Origin: Anaeromyxobacter terrae
GTDB taxonomy: Bacteria > Myxococcota > Myxococcia > Myxococcales > Anaeromyxobacteraceae
DNA length: 64,000 bases
Assembly (NCBI RefSeq): GCF_022690685.1
Contig: NZ_JALCYY010000031.1
Coordinates: 1-64,000 of the forward strand
Reading direction: 5' to 3'
Position 1 is the stretch's first letter. Every line of letters starts with the position of its first letter. Shown one piece after another: positions 3,475 through 10,311 of the stretch. Made by a program: the position numbers and the translations under genes. Below the pieces are notes generated by a model that worked only from the letters and a program-made list of their open reading frames with translations, was not told the origin of the DNA and did not search any database.

Positions 3475-6057
3475 ATGAGGATTCACGCGCTACTCCTCGG
3501 AGCGGCCCTCGCGGCCTTCCCGGCCGCGGCCCAGACGGCGCCGAACGCCGAGGAGCCCCCCGCGGCGGGCGTGCTGACGCGCGCGCCCGAGCTCATCGCG
3601 TTCGTCCCCGCCGAGTACCCCCCTGACGCCGAGGCGGCCGGCATCGAGGGCTCGGTCGAGCTCTCCATCGTCATCGACGAGCACGGCGAGGTGCAGCAGG
3701 CGGTGGTGGTGGACCCCGGGCCGCACCCGGGCTTCGCCGCCGCGGCGCTGCACGCGGTGCAGCAGTTCCGGTTCCGGCCCGCCGAGATCGACGGCAAGCC
3801 CGCGCCGGTGGAGATCGCCTACCGCTACGACTTCGTCCTGCGACGCGCGCCTCCGCCCCCGCCGGTCGAGGCGCCGGTGATGCTCACGGGGCGCGTCATC
3901 GAGCGCGGGACCCGGACGCCGGTGGCGGGCGCCTCCGTCGACGTGGGCGGCGTCGCGACCGAGACGGACGCTGACGGCCGCTTCGCGGTGCGCGGGGTCG
4001 CGCCCGGGCCGGCGCAGGTTCGCATCGTCTCGGCGGAGCACGAGACCTTCACGGTCACGGAGACGATCGAGGCCGGTAAGCAGCTGGAGGTCGAGTACCG
4101 GCTCTCGCGCCGGAGCTACGATCCGTACGAGGCGGTGGTGCGAGGCGAGCGGCCGCGGCGCGAGGTGAGCGTCCACACGCTCGAGGTCGAGGAGATCCGG
4201 ACCATCGCCGGGACGCAGGGCGACACGCTGAAGGTCATCCAGAACCTGCCGGGCGTGGCGCGCAGCCCGTTCGGCATCGGGCTGCTCGTGGTGCGCGGCT
4301 CGGAGCCCGCCGAGACCAACGTCTACCTCGACGGCATCCCGGTCCCCCTGCTCTTCCACTTCGGCGGCATCACCTCGGTCGTCTCCTCCGACGTGATCGA
4401 GTCGCTCGAGTTCCTCCCCGGCAACTTCGCGACCCGCTACGGCCGCGCGCTGGGCGGCACCGTGGATCTGCGCACGCGCGAGGGGCGCGACGCCTTCCAC
4501 GGGGCGGCGCAGCTCGACGTGTTCGACGGGCGCGTGGAGCTCGAGGGACCGCTCGCGGGCGGGACCGGGTTCCTCGCGGTGCGGCGCAGCTGGGTGGACG
4601 CCGTCCTCGCAGTGGTCCTGCCGCGCGTCGCCCCGGACACCGCCAACGAGCTCCGAGTCGCGCCGCGGTACTGGGACTACCAGGGGAAGTGGTCGCGTCC
4701 GCTGCTCGGCGGCACCCTCTCGCTCCTCGCCTACGGCTCGGACGACAAGCTCGAGTTCGTCGACCGCAGCGAGTCCTCCGGGCGGCCCACCTTCTACCTC
4801 TCGACGGTCTTCCACCGCGTCGGCGCCCGCTGGCGGCGGACGATCGGGCCGGCGCGCAACGACCTCGTCGTGGCGCTCGGGCGCGACAGCTTCGACGTGC
4901 TCCAGTCGTCCAATTTCGGGATCCTCTCCGAGATCCGCTCGCTCACCCTGCGCGACGCCCTCACCTGGCGCGCGTCGGAGCGGCTCACGCTCGAGGCCGG
5001 GGTCGACGGGATCTTCCGCTCGTTCGACTACTCCATCTACGCGCCGCCCCTGAACGCGCCGGGCTCGATCGATCAGCAGGGCCAGGAGCGGCCCGAGGCG
5101 ACCGTCGGCGAGAGCGCGCGCGGCTCCTGGCTCGCGCCGGCCGGCTACGTGGAGGCCGACTGGCGCGCGACGACGCGGCTCCGGCTCGTCGCTGGGTTGC
5201 GCCTCGACGGCGACTCGCGGCTGCGGGGGCGGAAGACCTGGCTCGACCCGCGGGTCTCCGCGTTCTACGACCTCCGCGCGGGCACGCTCCTCACCGCGGC
5301 GGCCGGGCTGTTCGGCTCGGCGCCCCAGGTGCAGGACCTCACCGAGAGCTTCGGCAACCCGGAGCTCGGCGCGCAGCACGGGCTCCACCTCTCGCTCGGC
5401 GTCCGCCAGGCGCTGCCGTGGTCGGCGCGCCTCGAGCTCACCGGCTTCTACAAGCGGCTGTGGGACCTCGTCGTCCCGACGCGGGCCACCGACGCGCAGG
5501 GGAACCTCGAGCAGCTCTCGAACCGCGGCCACGGCCGGGCGTTCGGCCTCGAGGTGCTCCTCCGCCGCGAGCTCGCGCGGGGCCTGTTCGGCTGGCTCTC
5601 GTACACGTGGTCGCGCTCGGATCGCCAGGACGACCCGACGATGCCGTCGTACCCGGAGTGGCACCCGTTCCCCCTCGACCAGCGCCACATCCTCGCGCTG
5701 GTCCTCTCGTACCGGCTGCGCGGCGACTGGATCCTCGGCACGCGCGTGCGCGGGGTGAGCGGCAACCCGTACACGCCGCTCGATGGCAGCGTGTACGACG
5801 CCGACTCGGGACGCTACCAGTGCATCCCCGCCCCCGGCCGGTACTCCGGCCGCCTGCCCGGGTTCTTCCAGGCCGACGCTCGACTCGACAAGCGCTTCGT
5901 GTTCCGCTCCTGGATGATGTCCGTTTACGTGGACGTGCAGAACGTCACGAACCGCGAGAACGCCGAGTTCCGCTTTCCGAGCTACGACTGCTCGCAGACC
6001 GTGGCGATCCCCTCCGTCCCCGTCCTTCCCGCGCTCGGGCTCCGCGCCGAGTGGTGA
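3475..6057 (+). CDS. TonB-dependent outer membrane receptor with N-terminal TonB C-like domain
   Basis: An 860-residue secreted protein with a signal peptide (MRIHALLLGAALAAFPAAAQ). Residues about 45-125 resemble a TonB C-terminal energy-transducer domain (EYPPDAEAAGIEGSVELSI, then AVQQFRFRPAEIDGKPAPV). Residues about 140-210 form a carboxypeptidase-regulatory-like beta-sandwich, and about 225-345 the plug (QNLPGVARSPFGIGLLVVRG, NVYLDGIPVPLLFHFGG). The rest is a beta-barrel ending in an aromatic Trp. It should import a large ligand across the outer membrane using TonB energy. The ligand is unknown. Having a TonB-like domain on the receptor itself is unusual outside myxobacteria. A small lipoprotein gene follows four bases later, suggesting an operon. 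Confidence 0.88.
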   Translation: MRIHALLLGAALAAFPAAAQTAPNAEEPPAAGVLTRAPELIAFVPAEYPPDAEAAGIEGSVELSIVIDEHGEVQQAVVVDPGPHPGFAAAALHAVQQFRFRPAEIDGKPAPVEIAYRYDFVLRRAPPPPPVEAPVMLTGRVIERGTRTPVAGASVDVGGVATETDADGRFAVRGVAPGPAQVRIVSAEHETFTVTETIEAGKQLEVEYRLSRRSYDPYEAVVRGERPRREVSVHTLEVEEIRTIAGTQGDTLKVIQNLPGVARSPFGIGLLVVRGSEPAETNVYLDGIPVPLLFHFGGITSVVSSDVIESLEFLPGNFATRYGRALGGTVDLRTREGRDAFHGAAQLDVFDGRVELEGPLAGGTGFLAVRRSWVDAVLAVVLPRVAPDTANELRVAPRYWDYQGKWSRPLLGGTLSLLAYGSDDKLEFVDRSESSGRPTFYLSTVFHRVGARWRRTIGPARNDLVVALGRDSFDVLQSSNFGILSEIRSLTLRDALTWRASERLTLEAGVDGIFRSFDYSIYAPPLNAPGSIDQQGQERPEATVGESARGSWLAPAGYVEADWRATTRLRLVAGLRLDGDSRLRGRKTWLDPRVSAFYDLRAGTLLTAAAGLFGSAPQVQDLTESFGNPELGAQHGLHLSLGVRQALPWSARLELTGFYKRLWDLVVPTRATDAQGNLEQLSNRGHGRAFGLEVLLRRELARGLFGWLSYTWSRSDRQDDPTMPSYPEWHPFPLDQRHILALVLSYRLRGDWILGTRVRGVSGNPYTPLDGSVYDADSGRYQCIPAPGRYSGRLPGFFQADARLDKRFVFRSWMMSVYVDVQNVTNRENAEFRFPSYDCSQTVAIPSVPVLPALGLRAEW

Positions 6058-6061
6058 CCCC

Positions 6062-7045
6062 ATGCCCCGCCCCGTCACGCTCGCCGCGGCCCTCGCCCTC
6101 GCCCTCTCCGCCTGCAACACCGGCTTCGCGCCGCAGTATCTCGTCGCCGACCTGCGCATCCTCGCGGTCCGCTCGCAGGTGACGGGGAGCCTCGCGGCGG
6201 ATGCCCGGCTCGGCGACACCGTGCGGCTCACGGCGCTCGTCGCGAACCCGCTCGGCCGCGCGCCCCTGCGCATCCGCTGGGCGACCTGCATCCCGGACGG
6301 CACCGAGGCGCTCCCGCCCTGCCTCGACCCGGAGGCCCTGAGAGACGTCGACAGCCTCCTCGCCGCGCCGGGCGTCGTCGCGCTCGGCGAGGGGAGCTCG
6401 ATCGAGGTGACGGTGCCGGAGGTCGCGGGCGCCTTCGACCGGCTCATCGCGCGCGCCGAGGCGGAGCCCGCGCTCGCGTGCCGCCTCTACCTCGAGCTCC
6501 CCGTGCTCGTCGTCGCCGACGCGGGCGGGAAGCGCGAGGTGGCCGTGAAGCGCGTCCGGCTCATACCCGGGAGCGAGATCGCCGCGACCGAGCTCGCCGG
6601 CGCGTACGTGACGAACTCGAACCCGGTGCCGCTGGCGGTCCGGCGCGTGCCGAGCGAGGACGTGCCGTGCGGCGAGGGCGTCCCGGTCCTGGTGCCGTGC
6701 TGGGACGCCACCGCCTGCGACGCAGCGGGGTGCGGGGCCGACGGCTTCTGCGCCGCGGGCTTCCCGGCGGGGCGCGGCGTGCTCTGCGCCCGCGCGGACC
6801 CGGGCGCGGCGGATCCGCCCTACTACCAGTGCGCGCCCGACGGGGCGCGCACGCCGTTCTTCGAGTCGCTCGACTGGCAGTGGTACGTGACCGCGGGACG
6901 GTTCCCCGAGTTCACCGGCGTGGGGAACGCGACGGGCGACGCGGTGGAGTTCGAGGCGCCCGCGGGGCCATTCACGATCTGGGTCATCCTGCGCGACGGC
7001 CGCGGCGGCGAGGCGTGGTTCGAGCGCCAGGTACCTGGCGGGTGA
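6062..7045 (+). CDS. Cys-rich lipoprotein accompanying the TonB-dependent receptor
   Basis: A 327-residue predicted lipoprotein with a lipobox (LALALSAC, Cys near residue 18). It starts four bases after the receptor stop, so the pair is probably co-expressed. The N-terminal half looks beta-sandwich-like. The second half has a Cys-rich loop (WDATACDAAGCGADGFCAAG) that probably forms disulfides. Its position suggests a surface or periplasmic accessory of the receptor, for example in ligand capture; this is inferred from context only. It is convergent with the mlaD-like gene, 21 bases away. Confidence 0.7.
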   Translation: MPRPVTLAAALALALSACNTGFAPQYLVADLRILAVRSQVTGSLAADARLGDTVRLTALVANPLGRAPLRIRWATCIPDGTEALPPCLDPEALRDVDSLLAAPGVVALGEGSSIEVTVPEVAGAFDRLIARAEAEPALACRLYLELPVLVVADAGGKREVAVKRVRLIPGSEIAATELAGAYVTNSNPVPLAVRRVPSEDVPCGEGVPVLVPCWDATACDAAGCGADGFCAAGFPAGRGVLCARADPGAADPPYYQCAPDGARTPFFESLDWQWYVTAGRFPEFTGVGNATGDAVEFEAPAGPFTIWVILRDGRGGEAWFERQVPGG

Positions 7046-7066: not shown

Positions 7067-8791
7067 CTAGGGCACCGCGCTCGCCGCGCCGCTGACGCCC
7101 GACCCGAGGAGCGTCTTCACGTCGTCGTCGGTGAAGTACAGGCCGCCGCCGAAGAAGACGTCCGTGCCGACGTTGAAGCTGCGGCCGCCCGGGTACTTGC
7201 CGGTCTCCCACTGGTTCAGGAAGTCGTCGACGCCGGTCGTGACGTAGAAGTGCTGGAAGAAGTGGTAGTTCGCCCAGATCTTCGCGCGCGGGTAGACGGA
7301 GCGGCCGGGGCGCGAGAACTGGTACATGTTCACCGACAGCTGGAGCGCGTCCTGGAGGAGGTGCAGGTCCGAGCCGACGCCGCCGGAGCCCTCGATGATG
7401 CCAGCGCGGAACGTGACGGGCCCGTAGCGCTTCGCGAGCTCCAGCGACAAGCTGAGCTTCTCCTCGTTCAGCGTGCGCGTGACGAGCGTCGTGCTCTCGA
7501 CGTTCGAGCCCGGCGGTCGCGTGGTGATCGTCTCGGTCGTGACGGTGTTCACGCCGCGTGGATCGGAGACCAGCTCGATGAGGTAGTACTTGTCGGGCCG
7601 CGGCATGAGCCGCGCGCCGAAGTAGATCTTGGCGCCCGGCCGCCCCTCGGAGACGGTCTGGTTGAGCAGCCACTCGGAGCGGAGCTGGAGCTGGACCTGC
7701 AGCTTCACGAGCCGGTCGACGTAGTCGCTGAGCCCCTCGACCGCGTCGCCGACCTTGCGGCCGAGGCGCTCGTCGACGAGGAGCTTGCCCGCAGGGCTCT
7801 TCCCCTCGTTGACCTTCTCGAGCATCGAGTCGAGCTTGCCGAGGCTGCCGTTCAGCCGGTCCACGGCCTGCTTCACGCCGCCGACCTGGGCCTGGGCGAT
7901 GGCGCGCTGCTCGGGGGTGAGCAACGATCCGCTCGGCGCGCCCGCGACCCCAGGCGCTCCCGCGACCCCTGGCGCCCCTGGCGCCCCCGGCACGCCCGGC
8001 TCGCCGCGGGCCCCCGGCGCGCCGCCCCGGCCAGTACCCTGCGGGTCGATGATGTCCTGGACGCTCGCGAGGACGACGTTGAGGCGCGCGGTGAGATCCT
8101 CGACGTTGCGCGCGATGTTGTGGATCCGCTCCTTGTCGCGGCCGGAGATCTCGGAGATGTCGCCCGTGAAGTCGCGGGTGTTCTGGAGGATCTGCGAGAG
8201 CGTCTGACCGTTCTCGGAGACGACCTGGTCCACCTCGCGCGTGATCCGGGCGAGGTTCTCGATGATCTCGCGCAGGCTCCCCTGGTTGCCGCTCACGGTC
8301 TTCGCGAGGTCGCCCGTGACGGCCTGGACGTCGATGGCGATCTTCGCCATCGCGTCCATGAGCTCCTGGGTCGTGGCCGCCGCGCGCGCGCAGACGATCT
8401 CGCGCTTCTCCTCGGGGAGGTTGCGGAGGAGCGGCGTCGCCTCGGTGCCCGGCGTCGCCTCGAGGGTGGCGTCGGGGAGGAGGGCCGACGGATAGGTCTT
8501 CGTGAGGCACGCGTCCGTGTGCAGCTCGATCTCGTTCTTGACCCGGATCTCCAGGCGCGCGCGGGCGCCCTCGAGCCGGATCCCGTCTACCTCGCCGATC
8601 TGGATGCCGGCGATCTGCACGCGGCTCTTCCAGGTGAGGCCGGTCGCGTCGCGGAAGTACGCGTGGACGACGTAGCTGTCCCGGTCGGAGAACCCGCCCT
8701 TGCGGAAGAAGGTGAGCGCGATGAGGAACGCGATGCCGGTGACGGCAGCGAGGATGCCCACGGCGAGCGCCCTGTTGACTACCGGCTTCAA
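7067..8791 (-). CDS. MCE/MlaD-family lipid transport protein with collagen-like spacer and beta-rich C-terminal domain
   Basis: A 574-residue protein, far longer than E. coli MlaD (about 180). It has an N-terminal transmembrane anchor, then an MCE domain (GLTWKSRVQIAGIQIGEVDG), then a helical stretch to about residue 250. Next come ten uninterrupted Gly-X-Y triplets at residues about 257-286 (7934-8023), then another helical region. The last 200 or so residues are beta-rich with alternating aromatics (AKIWANYHFFQHFYVTTGVD). MCE proteins bind lipids for the MlaFE transporter; the tail could reach or enter the outer membrane (inference). The TTG at 8791 overlaps the mlaF stop with GAGGA upstream; an ATG at 8827 is the alternative. 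Confidence 0.82.
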   Translation of the reverse strand: MKPVVNRALAVGILAAVTGIAFLIALTFFRKGGFSDRDSYVVHAYFRDATGLTWKSRVQIAGIQIGEVDGIRLEGARARLEIRVKNEIELHTDACLTKTYPSALLPDATLEATPGTEATPLLRNLPEEKREIVCARAAATTQELMDAMAKIAIDVQAVTGDLAKTVSGNQGSLREIIENLARITREVDQVVSENGQTLSQILQNTRDFTGDISEISGRDKERIHNIARNVEDLTARLNVVLASVQDIIDPQGTGRGGAPGARGEPGVPGAPGAPGVAGAPGVAGAPSGSLLTPEQRAIAQAQVGGVKQAVDRLNGSLGKLDSMLEKVNEGKSPAGKLLVDERLGRKVGDAVEGLSDYVDRLVKLQVQLQLRSEWLLNQTVSEGRPGAKIYFGARLMPRPDKYYLIELVSDPRGVNTVTTETITTRPPGSNVESTTLVTRTLNEEKLSLSLELAKRYGPVTFRAGIIEGSGGVGSDLHLLQDALQLSVNMYQFSRPGRSVYPRAKIWANYHFFQHFYVTTGVDDFLNQWETGKYPGGRSFNVGTDVFFGGGLYFTDDDVKTLLGSGVSGAASAVP

Positions 8792-9555
8792 GCGGATCGG
8801 TCCTCGGAGGCCTGCTTCTCGAACCACATCGAGAGGAACCGCTGCACGTATGGGTCCTTGCTGTCCCGCACCTCGGCGGGGGTCCCCTCGGCGGCGAGGT
8901 GCCCATCGTAGAGCACCGCGAGGCGGTCGGCCACCTTGAAGGCGCTCGCGATGTCGTGGGAGATGACCATGCTCGTGATCCCGAGCGCCCGCTTCGCGTT
9001 CAGTATCATCCCGTCCACGTAGTCGGTGGTGATGGGGTCGAGGCCGGTGGTCGGCTCGTCGTAGAGCACCACCTGCGGGTCGGAGACGAGGGCGCGGGCG
9101 AGCGCCACGCGCTTGCGCATGCCGCCGGAGAGCTCGGACGGCCAGCGCGGCAGGACCTCCTCGCCGAGATCGACGACGCGAAGCTTCTCGATCACCCGCC
9201 GGCGCACCTCGTCCGGGGCGATCCGCTCGCCGCGCCGCTTCTCGGTGAGCGGAAACGCCACGTTCTCGTACACCGTCATCGAGTCGAAGAGCGCGGCGCC
9301 CTGGAACACCATCCCGAACAGCTGGCGCGCCTCGGTGAGCGCCTTCCCGTGGAGGGAGGAGATCTCGATCCCGCCGACGTGCACCGACCCGCGATCGGGC
9401 TTGAGGAGCCCGATGACGTGCTTCATGAGGACGGTCTTACCCGAGCCCGACCCACCGAGCACGACGTACGTCTGCCCCTTGGGGATCTTGAGCGTGATCC
9501 CCTTCAGCACGTGGTTCTCGCCGAACGACTTCCAGAGCTCGCGGACCTCGATCAC
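8788..9555 (-). CDS. mlaF: MlaF-like ABC transporter ATPase for lipid transport
   Basis: A 255-residue ABC ATPase. Walker A is LGGSGSGKTVLMKH, the Q-loop lies in FGMVFQGAALFDSMTVYENV, the signature is ELSGGMRKRVALARAL, and Walker B is VVLYDEPTTGLDP followed by the His switch in VISHDIASAF. The AALFDSMTVYENVAFPL segment and LSGGM signature are typical of MlaF/MkL proteins that power lipid movement through MlaE and MCE partners. It sits between mlaE (three-base gap) and the MCE gene (four-base overlap), so all three form one operon. Direction of lipid flow cannot be told. Confidence 0.92.
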   Translation of the reverse strand: MIEVRELWKSFGENHVLKGITLKIPKGQTYVVLGGSGSGKTVLMKHVIGLLKPDRGSVHVGGIEISSLHGKALTEARQLFGMVFQGAALFDSMTVYENVAFPLTEKRRGERIAPDEVRRRVIEKLRVVDLGEEVLPRWPSELSGGMRKRVALARALVSDPQVVLYDEPTTGLDPITTDYVDGMILNAKRALGITSMVISHDIASAFKVADRLAVLYDGHLAAEGTPAEVRDSKDPYVQRFLSMWFEKQASEDRSA

Positions 9556-9558
9556 GGC

Positions 9559-10311
9559 TCAGGTCCCCACCGAGACGAAGGTGATCGCGTAGTCGGCGAG
9601 CAGGATGAAGATGGAGCTCGAGACGACGCCGCGGGTCGTCCCCTCGCCCACCCCCCGCGCGCCGCCCGTCGCCGCGTAGCCGCGCCAGGTGGTGATCACC
9701 GAGACGATGAGCCCGAACACCACCGCCTTGAGCAGGCCGTGGAGGATGTCGCTCACCTTCATGAACTCCTGGGTGTGAGCGAGGTACGGGCCGATGGGGA
9801 TCCGCGCGACGTACACGCCCATCACGAACCCGCCGGCGTAGCCGAGCGCGTTGAAGAGCATGGTGAGCATCGGGAACATGAGCAGCGACGCGATCACCCG
9901 CGGCACGACCAGGTACTGGATCGGGTTCACCGCCATCGACTCCATCGCGTCGATCTGCTCGGTGACGCGCATGGTGCCGAGCTCGGTCGCGATGGCGCTG
10001 CCGGCGCGGCCGGTGACCATGAGCGCGGTGAACACCGGCGACAGCTCGCGGGCGAGCGAGAAGGCGACCGAGCCGCCGACGTAGCCCTCGGCCGCGAACT
10101 GCTTCATCGCGAAGTTCATCTGCAGCGCGAACACCATGCCGGAGAACGTGCCGGTGACGCCGACGATGAAGGCGGAGCCCACGCCGATGAAGGCCATCTG
10201 GGCGAGCACGAGCTCGGGGCGGAACGGCGGCCGGAAGACCCACGCGACCATCTCGACCGCGAACAGGAGCATCCGGCCGAAGTCCTCGAGGGCGGCCTTG
10301 AGACGATCCAT
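9559..10311 (-). CDS. mlaE: MlaE-like ABC transporter permease for lipid transport
   Basis: A 250-residue inner membrane permease with about five to six hydrophobic segments. Family landmarks are GTFSGMVFALQMNFAMKQFA, the ARELSPVFTALMVTGRAGSA loop, and the EQIDAMESMAVNPIQYLVVP motif characteristic of MlaE/YrbE permeases. It is the first gene of an mlaE-mlaF-mlaD-type operon and would form the membrane core of the transporter. Upstream it is divergent from a small zinc-ribbon gene, with 90 bases between the two start codons. Confidence 0.92.
   Translation of the reverse strand: MDRLKAALEDFGRMLLFAVEMVAWVFRPPFRPELVLAQMAFIGVGSAFIVGVTGTFSGMVFALQMNFAMKQFAAEGYVGGSVAFSLARELSPVFTALMVTGRAGSAIATELGTMRVTEQIDAMESMAVNPIQYLVVPRVIASLLMFPMLTMLFNALGYAGGFVMGVYVARIPIGPYLAHTQEFMKVSDILHGLLKAVVFGLIVSVITTWRGYAATGGARGVGEGTTRGVVSSSIFILLADYAITFVSVGT

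Follow-up and report, generated by a model that had tools for sequence, protein, structure and literature searches.

The window, by which we mean the whole 64,000-nucleotide stretch of DNA that was analysed, carries an mlaE–mlaF–mlaD operon whose last gene encodes a 574-residue MCE protein. The explanation that we favour, and regard as probable when taken as a whole, is that the operon specifies a minimal phospholipid transporter, MlaEFD, in which a long MlaD would span the envelope with its β-domain end in the outer membrane, and that a run of collagen-like Gly-X-Y triplets within MlaD is a flexible insertion, specific to the lineage, at a site where a turn (GSGEGE) already separated two helical stretches. 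The route of phospholipids across the periplasm in the absence of MlaA and MlaC is an open question and, in the literature searched, localization data for a long MlaD bridge come from Veillonella parvula alone. A Myxococcota protein with the same plan, a phylum-wide tail and cultured relatives would allow the idea to be tested in a distant lineage.

The mlaEFD operon and the layout of MlaD

The three genes lie on the minus strand in the order mlaE–mlaF–mlaD and overlap, and the assignments of the two upstream genes are supported by both Pfam and NCBIfam:

9559..10311, minus strand: mlaE, lipid ABC transporter permease, 250 residues, first gene of the operon (PF02405 MlaE, 256.9 bits; TIGR00056 above cut-off)
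8788..9555, minus strand: mlaF, ATPase subunit, 255 residues, between mlaE and mlaD (ABC_tran, 115.9 bits)
7067..8791, minus strand: mlaD, long MCE protein, 574 residues, last gene of the operon (TTG start overlapping the mlaF stop)

For mlaF, the MlaF model NF008809 is among the best matches, yet it scores under its own cut-off. Translation of the window places mlaD from 8791 to 7067, so that the coordinates and length given in an earlier note on this DNA are right, with the strand now set as minus. The plus-strand reading of 7067–8791 is an open frame unrelated to the MCE protein. The TTG start codon at 8791 shares the sequence TTGA with the TGA stop of mlaF; a longer frame of 586 residues begins at a GTG at 8827, and the 574-residue start is supported by congeners, in which this position is likewise a start codon. 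A scan of the locus for promoters and terminators found none. Two plus-strand genes lie beyond the end of the operon. The nearer (window 6062–7045) is convergent with mlaD and encodes a 327-residue protein with a lipoprotein-like N terminus (LALALSAC) and no convincing family match, and the other (window 3475–6057) encodes a TonB-dependent receptor in which a TonB C-terminal domain and a carboxypeptidase-regulatory-like domain are N-terminal, ahead of the plug and the barrel.

MlaD is, as the earlier note had proposed, an MCE protein of the MlaD type (PF02470, 41.6 bits against a cut-off of 25.1). It scores below the cut-off of the equivalog model for E. coli-type MlaD (TIGR04430, 52 bits against 135), and it is longer than the short proteobacterial form, with a long helical region as judged from a low-confidence model. 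Its layout, from the N terminus, is as follows:

8699..8773, minus strand: N-terminal transmembrane (TM) helix, residues 7–31 (helix in low-confidence model; hydrophobic sequence)
8504..8677, minus strand: core of the MCE (MlaD) domain, residues 39–96 (PF02470 above cut-off)
8048..8371, minus strand: predicted first helical stretch, residues 141–248 (secondary structure of low-confidence model)
7934..8032, minus strand: collagen-like spacer of 11 uninterrupted Gly-X-Y triplets, residues 254–286 (sequence pattern; chance expectation 0)
7709..7915, minus strand: predicted second helical stretch with the conserved GKLLVDERLGRK motif, residues 293–361 (low-confidence model; orthologue comparison)
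7067..7711, minus strand: C-terminal β-domain of about ten strands, residues 361–574, a putative outer-membrane barrel (models, conservation and coevolution; class precedent in PMC10665443)

MlaA (PF04333) and MlaC (PF05494) had no match in the genome, which is 99.98% complete, and both E. coli and Caulobacter controls were detected. A second MCE locus, separate from the mlaEFD operon (G000:C99:70849-74145), comprises a permease, an ATPase, an MCE protein of about 317 residues and a downstream lipoprotein-like frame; the genome therefore has two MCE systems.

The C-terminal β-domain and a putative bridge across the envelope

The domain that begins near residue 361 was found in 168 of 195 Myxococcota genomes and also in two Nitrospirota genomes, and profile searches with it against Pfam and PDB sequences gave no family match. 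A tblastn search of a plasmid collection matched the N-terminal MCE/helical part only, in actinobacterial Mce proteins. AlphaFold2 models of the full-length protein and of the C-terminal domain (five sequences each) had pLDDT values of 33.5 and 37.2; both contain ten strands, with boundaries that differ somewhat between the two, and at this low confidence they offer a hint only. Foldseek returned no PDB match at E ≤ 0.001 for the model of the tail domain, a poor query. Among 159 distinct homologues, with strand limits drawn by hand from the models and the sequence, the predicted strands have hydrophobic faces alternating with polar ones to a greater degree than permuted strands (p = 0.0002), and the claim of a β-rich tail in the earlier note is borne out. 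Mean-field direct coupling analysis of the same 159 sequences (about 94 effective), with the strand limits again set by hand, gave antiparallel coevolution ladders that are stronger in neighbouring than in non-neighbouring strands (Mann–Whitney p = 0.002); a closure signal between strand 1 and strand 10 was absent at this depth. The C terminus lacks the final aromatic residue usual in many outer-membrane proteins, as it does in most members of the family. Taken together, these predictions fit a β-meander, and fit a barrel without proving one.

The closest precedent is V. parvula, which has MlaEFD without MlaA and MlaC, and in which the long MlaD runs from a TM helix and an MCE domain through some 150 helical residues to a ten-strand barrel (Grasekamp 2023, PMC10665443). 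A barrel construct of this protein fractionates with the outer membrane, and a transenvelope bridge has been proposed for it. Long MlaD proteins are widespread, and a barrel was inferred in 103 sequences; most of the long MlaD proteins surveyed lack a complete barrel, and the versions with a barrel tend to go with the absence of MlaA and MlaC (PMC10665443). The protein described here resembles V. parvula MlaD in its N-terminal TM helix, MCE domain, long helices, ten predicted C-terminal strands, mlaEF partners and undetected MlaA and MlaC. It differs in length (574 residues, against 419 in V. parvula) and in the collagen-like insert between the helical stretches; and whereas the V. parvula barrel has outer-membrane fractionation behind it, the tail here is a putative barrel likened to it by class resemblance. 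E. coli MlaD, part of MlaFEDB, shares the TM helix, the MCE domain and the MlaE and MlaF partners, but has 183 residues, without long helices or a β-tail, and works with MlaC and MlaA. In PqiB and mycobacterial Mce1, the MCE ring is continued by a helical tunnel, which provides a model for the middle part of our protein; PqiB, however, has three MCE domains and Mce1 is a heterohexamer, and no β-tail or Gly-X-Y insert like those here is described for either in the literature searched. The transenvelope idea is therefore already published for long MlaD as a class, of which this protein is plausibly a member by analogy.

On this basis we propose the following mechanism, in which we infer the hexamer, the tunnel, the outer-membrane insertion and the lipid direction from relatives. 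MlaE and MlaF would form the inner-membrane pump, and the N-terminal helix of MlaD would anchor the protein in the inner membrane. MlaD is probably a hexamer, as characterized MCE proteins are, and may form an MCE ring followed by a helical tunnel across the periplasm, with the roughly ten-strand β-domain most likely inserted in the outer membrane. Lipid would most likely travel by way of MlaE, the MCE ring, the helical tunnel and the outer-membrane end of one polypeptide. With an end of MlaD in the outer membrane, the MlaA/MlaC shuttle would not be needed. The earlier note had also suggested that one polypeptide may link the two membranes; this part stands as a class resemblance, through mlaEFD, the undetected MlaA and MlaC and the ten predicted amphipathic strands, and stops short of a barrel at pLDDT values of 33–37 with closure unseen.

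The β-domain might instead be soluble in the periplasm, serving as a cap for the tunnel or docking onto a separate outer-membrane protein, a reading that we consider unlikely. Several of the results above would suit it, namely the lack of a recognizable Pfam outer-membrane family for the tail, the missing closure signal, the absence of the C-terminal aromatic signature from most members and the scarcity of complete barrels among surveyed long MlaD proteins (PMC10665443). It accounts less well for a ten-strand meander in which hydrophobic faces alternate with polar or charged ones and the strand number equals that of the V. parvula barrel, and it is left with no MlaA or MlaC found to pass lipid to the outer membrane. 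Alternating faces, however, occur in soluble sheets too.

The collagen-like spacer and its distribution

The ten uninterrupted Gly-X-Y triplets that the earlier note had placed at 7934–8023 are exactly there, and a GRG at 8024–8032 extends the run to 11 (7934–8032). Neither 100 dinucleotide shuffles of the 64 kb window nor 20,000 reshufflings of the residues within the insert produced a run of this length; the observed run is real and beyond chance. Pfam Collagen (PF01391) matches MlaD weakly (15.8 bits against a cut-off of 27.2), and a GC-rich tandem repeat signal covers 7935–7998. Bacterial collagen-like proteins, for example of the Scl type, likewise have uninterrupted Gly-X-Y triplets, but the run here is much shorter, lies inside an MCE protein, scores below the PF01391 cut-off and has no known trimerization domain. 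An MCE protein with a collagen-like segment was not found in the literature searched, which covered few subscription journals. The insert is thus the only part of the protein that looks new, and looks to be a modest lineage-specific variant.

Orthologues sampled at genus, family, order and phylum level locate the spacer on the tree. All seven Anaeromyxobacter congeners with an unbroken mlaD locus, the window included, have 7–11 triplets. Two further congeners are outside this count: contig breaks in their assemblies, G004 (contigs C22 and C56) and G008 (C70 and C405), fall within the collagen-like part of mlaD, and in the 5′ piece from G008 the Gly-X-Y pattern is not clean. In one sister genus (g6), a single species has ten triplets and two others are Gly/Ala-rich or Thr-rich (runs of 4 and 2); a second sister genus (g3) has 4–6 triplets. 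Beyond a few residues the insert is absent from other genera of the family, and in the rest of the order the site is a short turn, for example VGSGEGE. Most orthologues lack the spacer, and these keep the flanking helical sequence and the tail. Judged by these sequences, the spacer is lineage-specific and confined to a small set of soil bacteria, belonging to one genus and largely degenerate in two sister genera. On a tree built from the flanking protein, two changes are needed to explain the long-run state; a single gain with a partial loss would account for them, as would two separate expansions. The earlier note had named triplets that are absent or highly variable in close orthologues as evidence that would refute its reading; all intact congeners keep the triplets, and outside the genus they are indeed absent or highly variable. 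The collagen-like stretch is therefore not needed to span the periplasm, as it is missing from relatives whose helices and tail are the same. At the same hinge in genus g4 (locus L024), whose relatives have no insert, there is a short GPGGPGQPGQ, perhaps an independent small expansion.

Selection on the glycine periodicity was assessed on a codon alignment blind to amino acids, in which the window was compared with its two nearest relatives and those two with each other. In this subclade, glycine codons have 8–9 synonymous and 1–2 non-synonymous changes, and the other insert codons have 5–7 synonymous and 13–15 non-synonymous changes (Fisher p = 0.015, 0.006 and 0.002 for three pairs that share branches and are not independent). 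The same comparison in a second subclade was not significant. For some of the genus at least, the codon changes suggest that a glycine at every third residue is kept while X and Y vary.

These results bear on two other accounts of the run. It could be neutral low-complexity drift, arising from the slippage of nine-base, GC-rich units in a permissive loop and devoid of any collagen-like property; this is a real contender, albeit less probable than the flexible insertion that we favour. The tandem repeat signal at 7935–7998 speaks for drift, as do the sub-threshold Pfam Collagen score and the hypervariable length and composition of the insert, which is Gly/Ala-rich, Thr-rich or absent in sister genera. 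Drift sits poorly with the mostly synonymous changes at glycine codons in the window's subclade (Fisher p = 0.002–0.015, not significant in the second subclade) and with the retention of 7–11 triplets in 7/7 intact congeners. The Gly-X-Y segments of the hexamer might assemble, either as triple helices (two per hexamer) or as a polyproline-II bundle of all six chains, and so stiffen or gate the tunnel; we think this very improbable. Glycine periodicity kept amid synonymous turnover would be expected of such an assembly, and an MCE ring holding six chains parallel would raise their local concentration; yet the spacer is lost in sister genera that keep the rest of the protein, and 7–11 triplets in which Pro is not hydroxylated and Ala is frequent are likely to form a triple helix of marginal stability. 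It is equally improbable, in our estimate, that the six segments fold into a collagen-like or polyproline-II collar in the lipid-transport bridge, although such a collar, if true, would provide a compliant or gating joint for the tunnel.

For the flexible insertion that we prefer, we infer a spacer that is most likely extended and polyproline-II-like, lying outside the tunnel at the hinge. One genus has the insert and close relatives lack it, which amounts to a natural experiment on the length and flexibility that the bridge can tolerate. Other Gly-X-Y stretches, some of them much longer, occur elsewhere in the genome (G000:C1:28884-29182 and G000:C99:10810-10967), and collagen-like coding sequence is therefore not unique to mlaD here.
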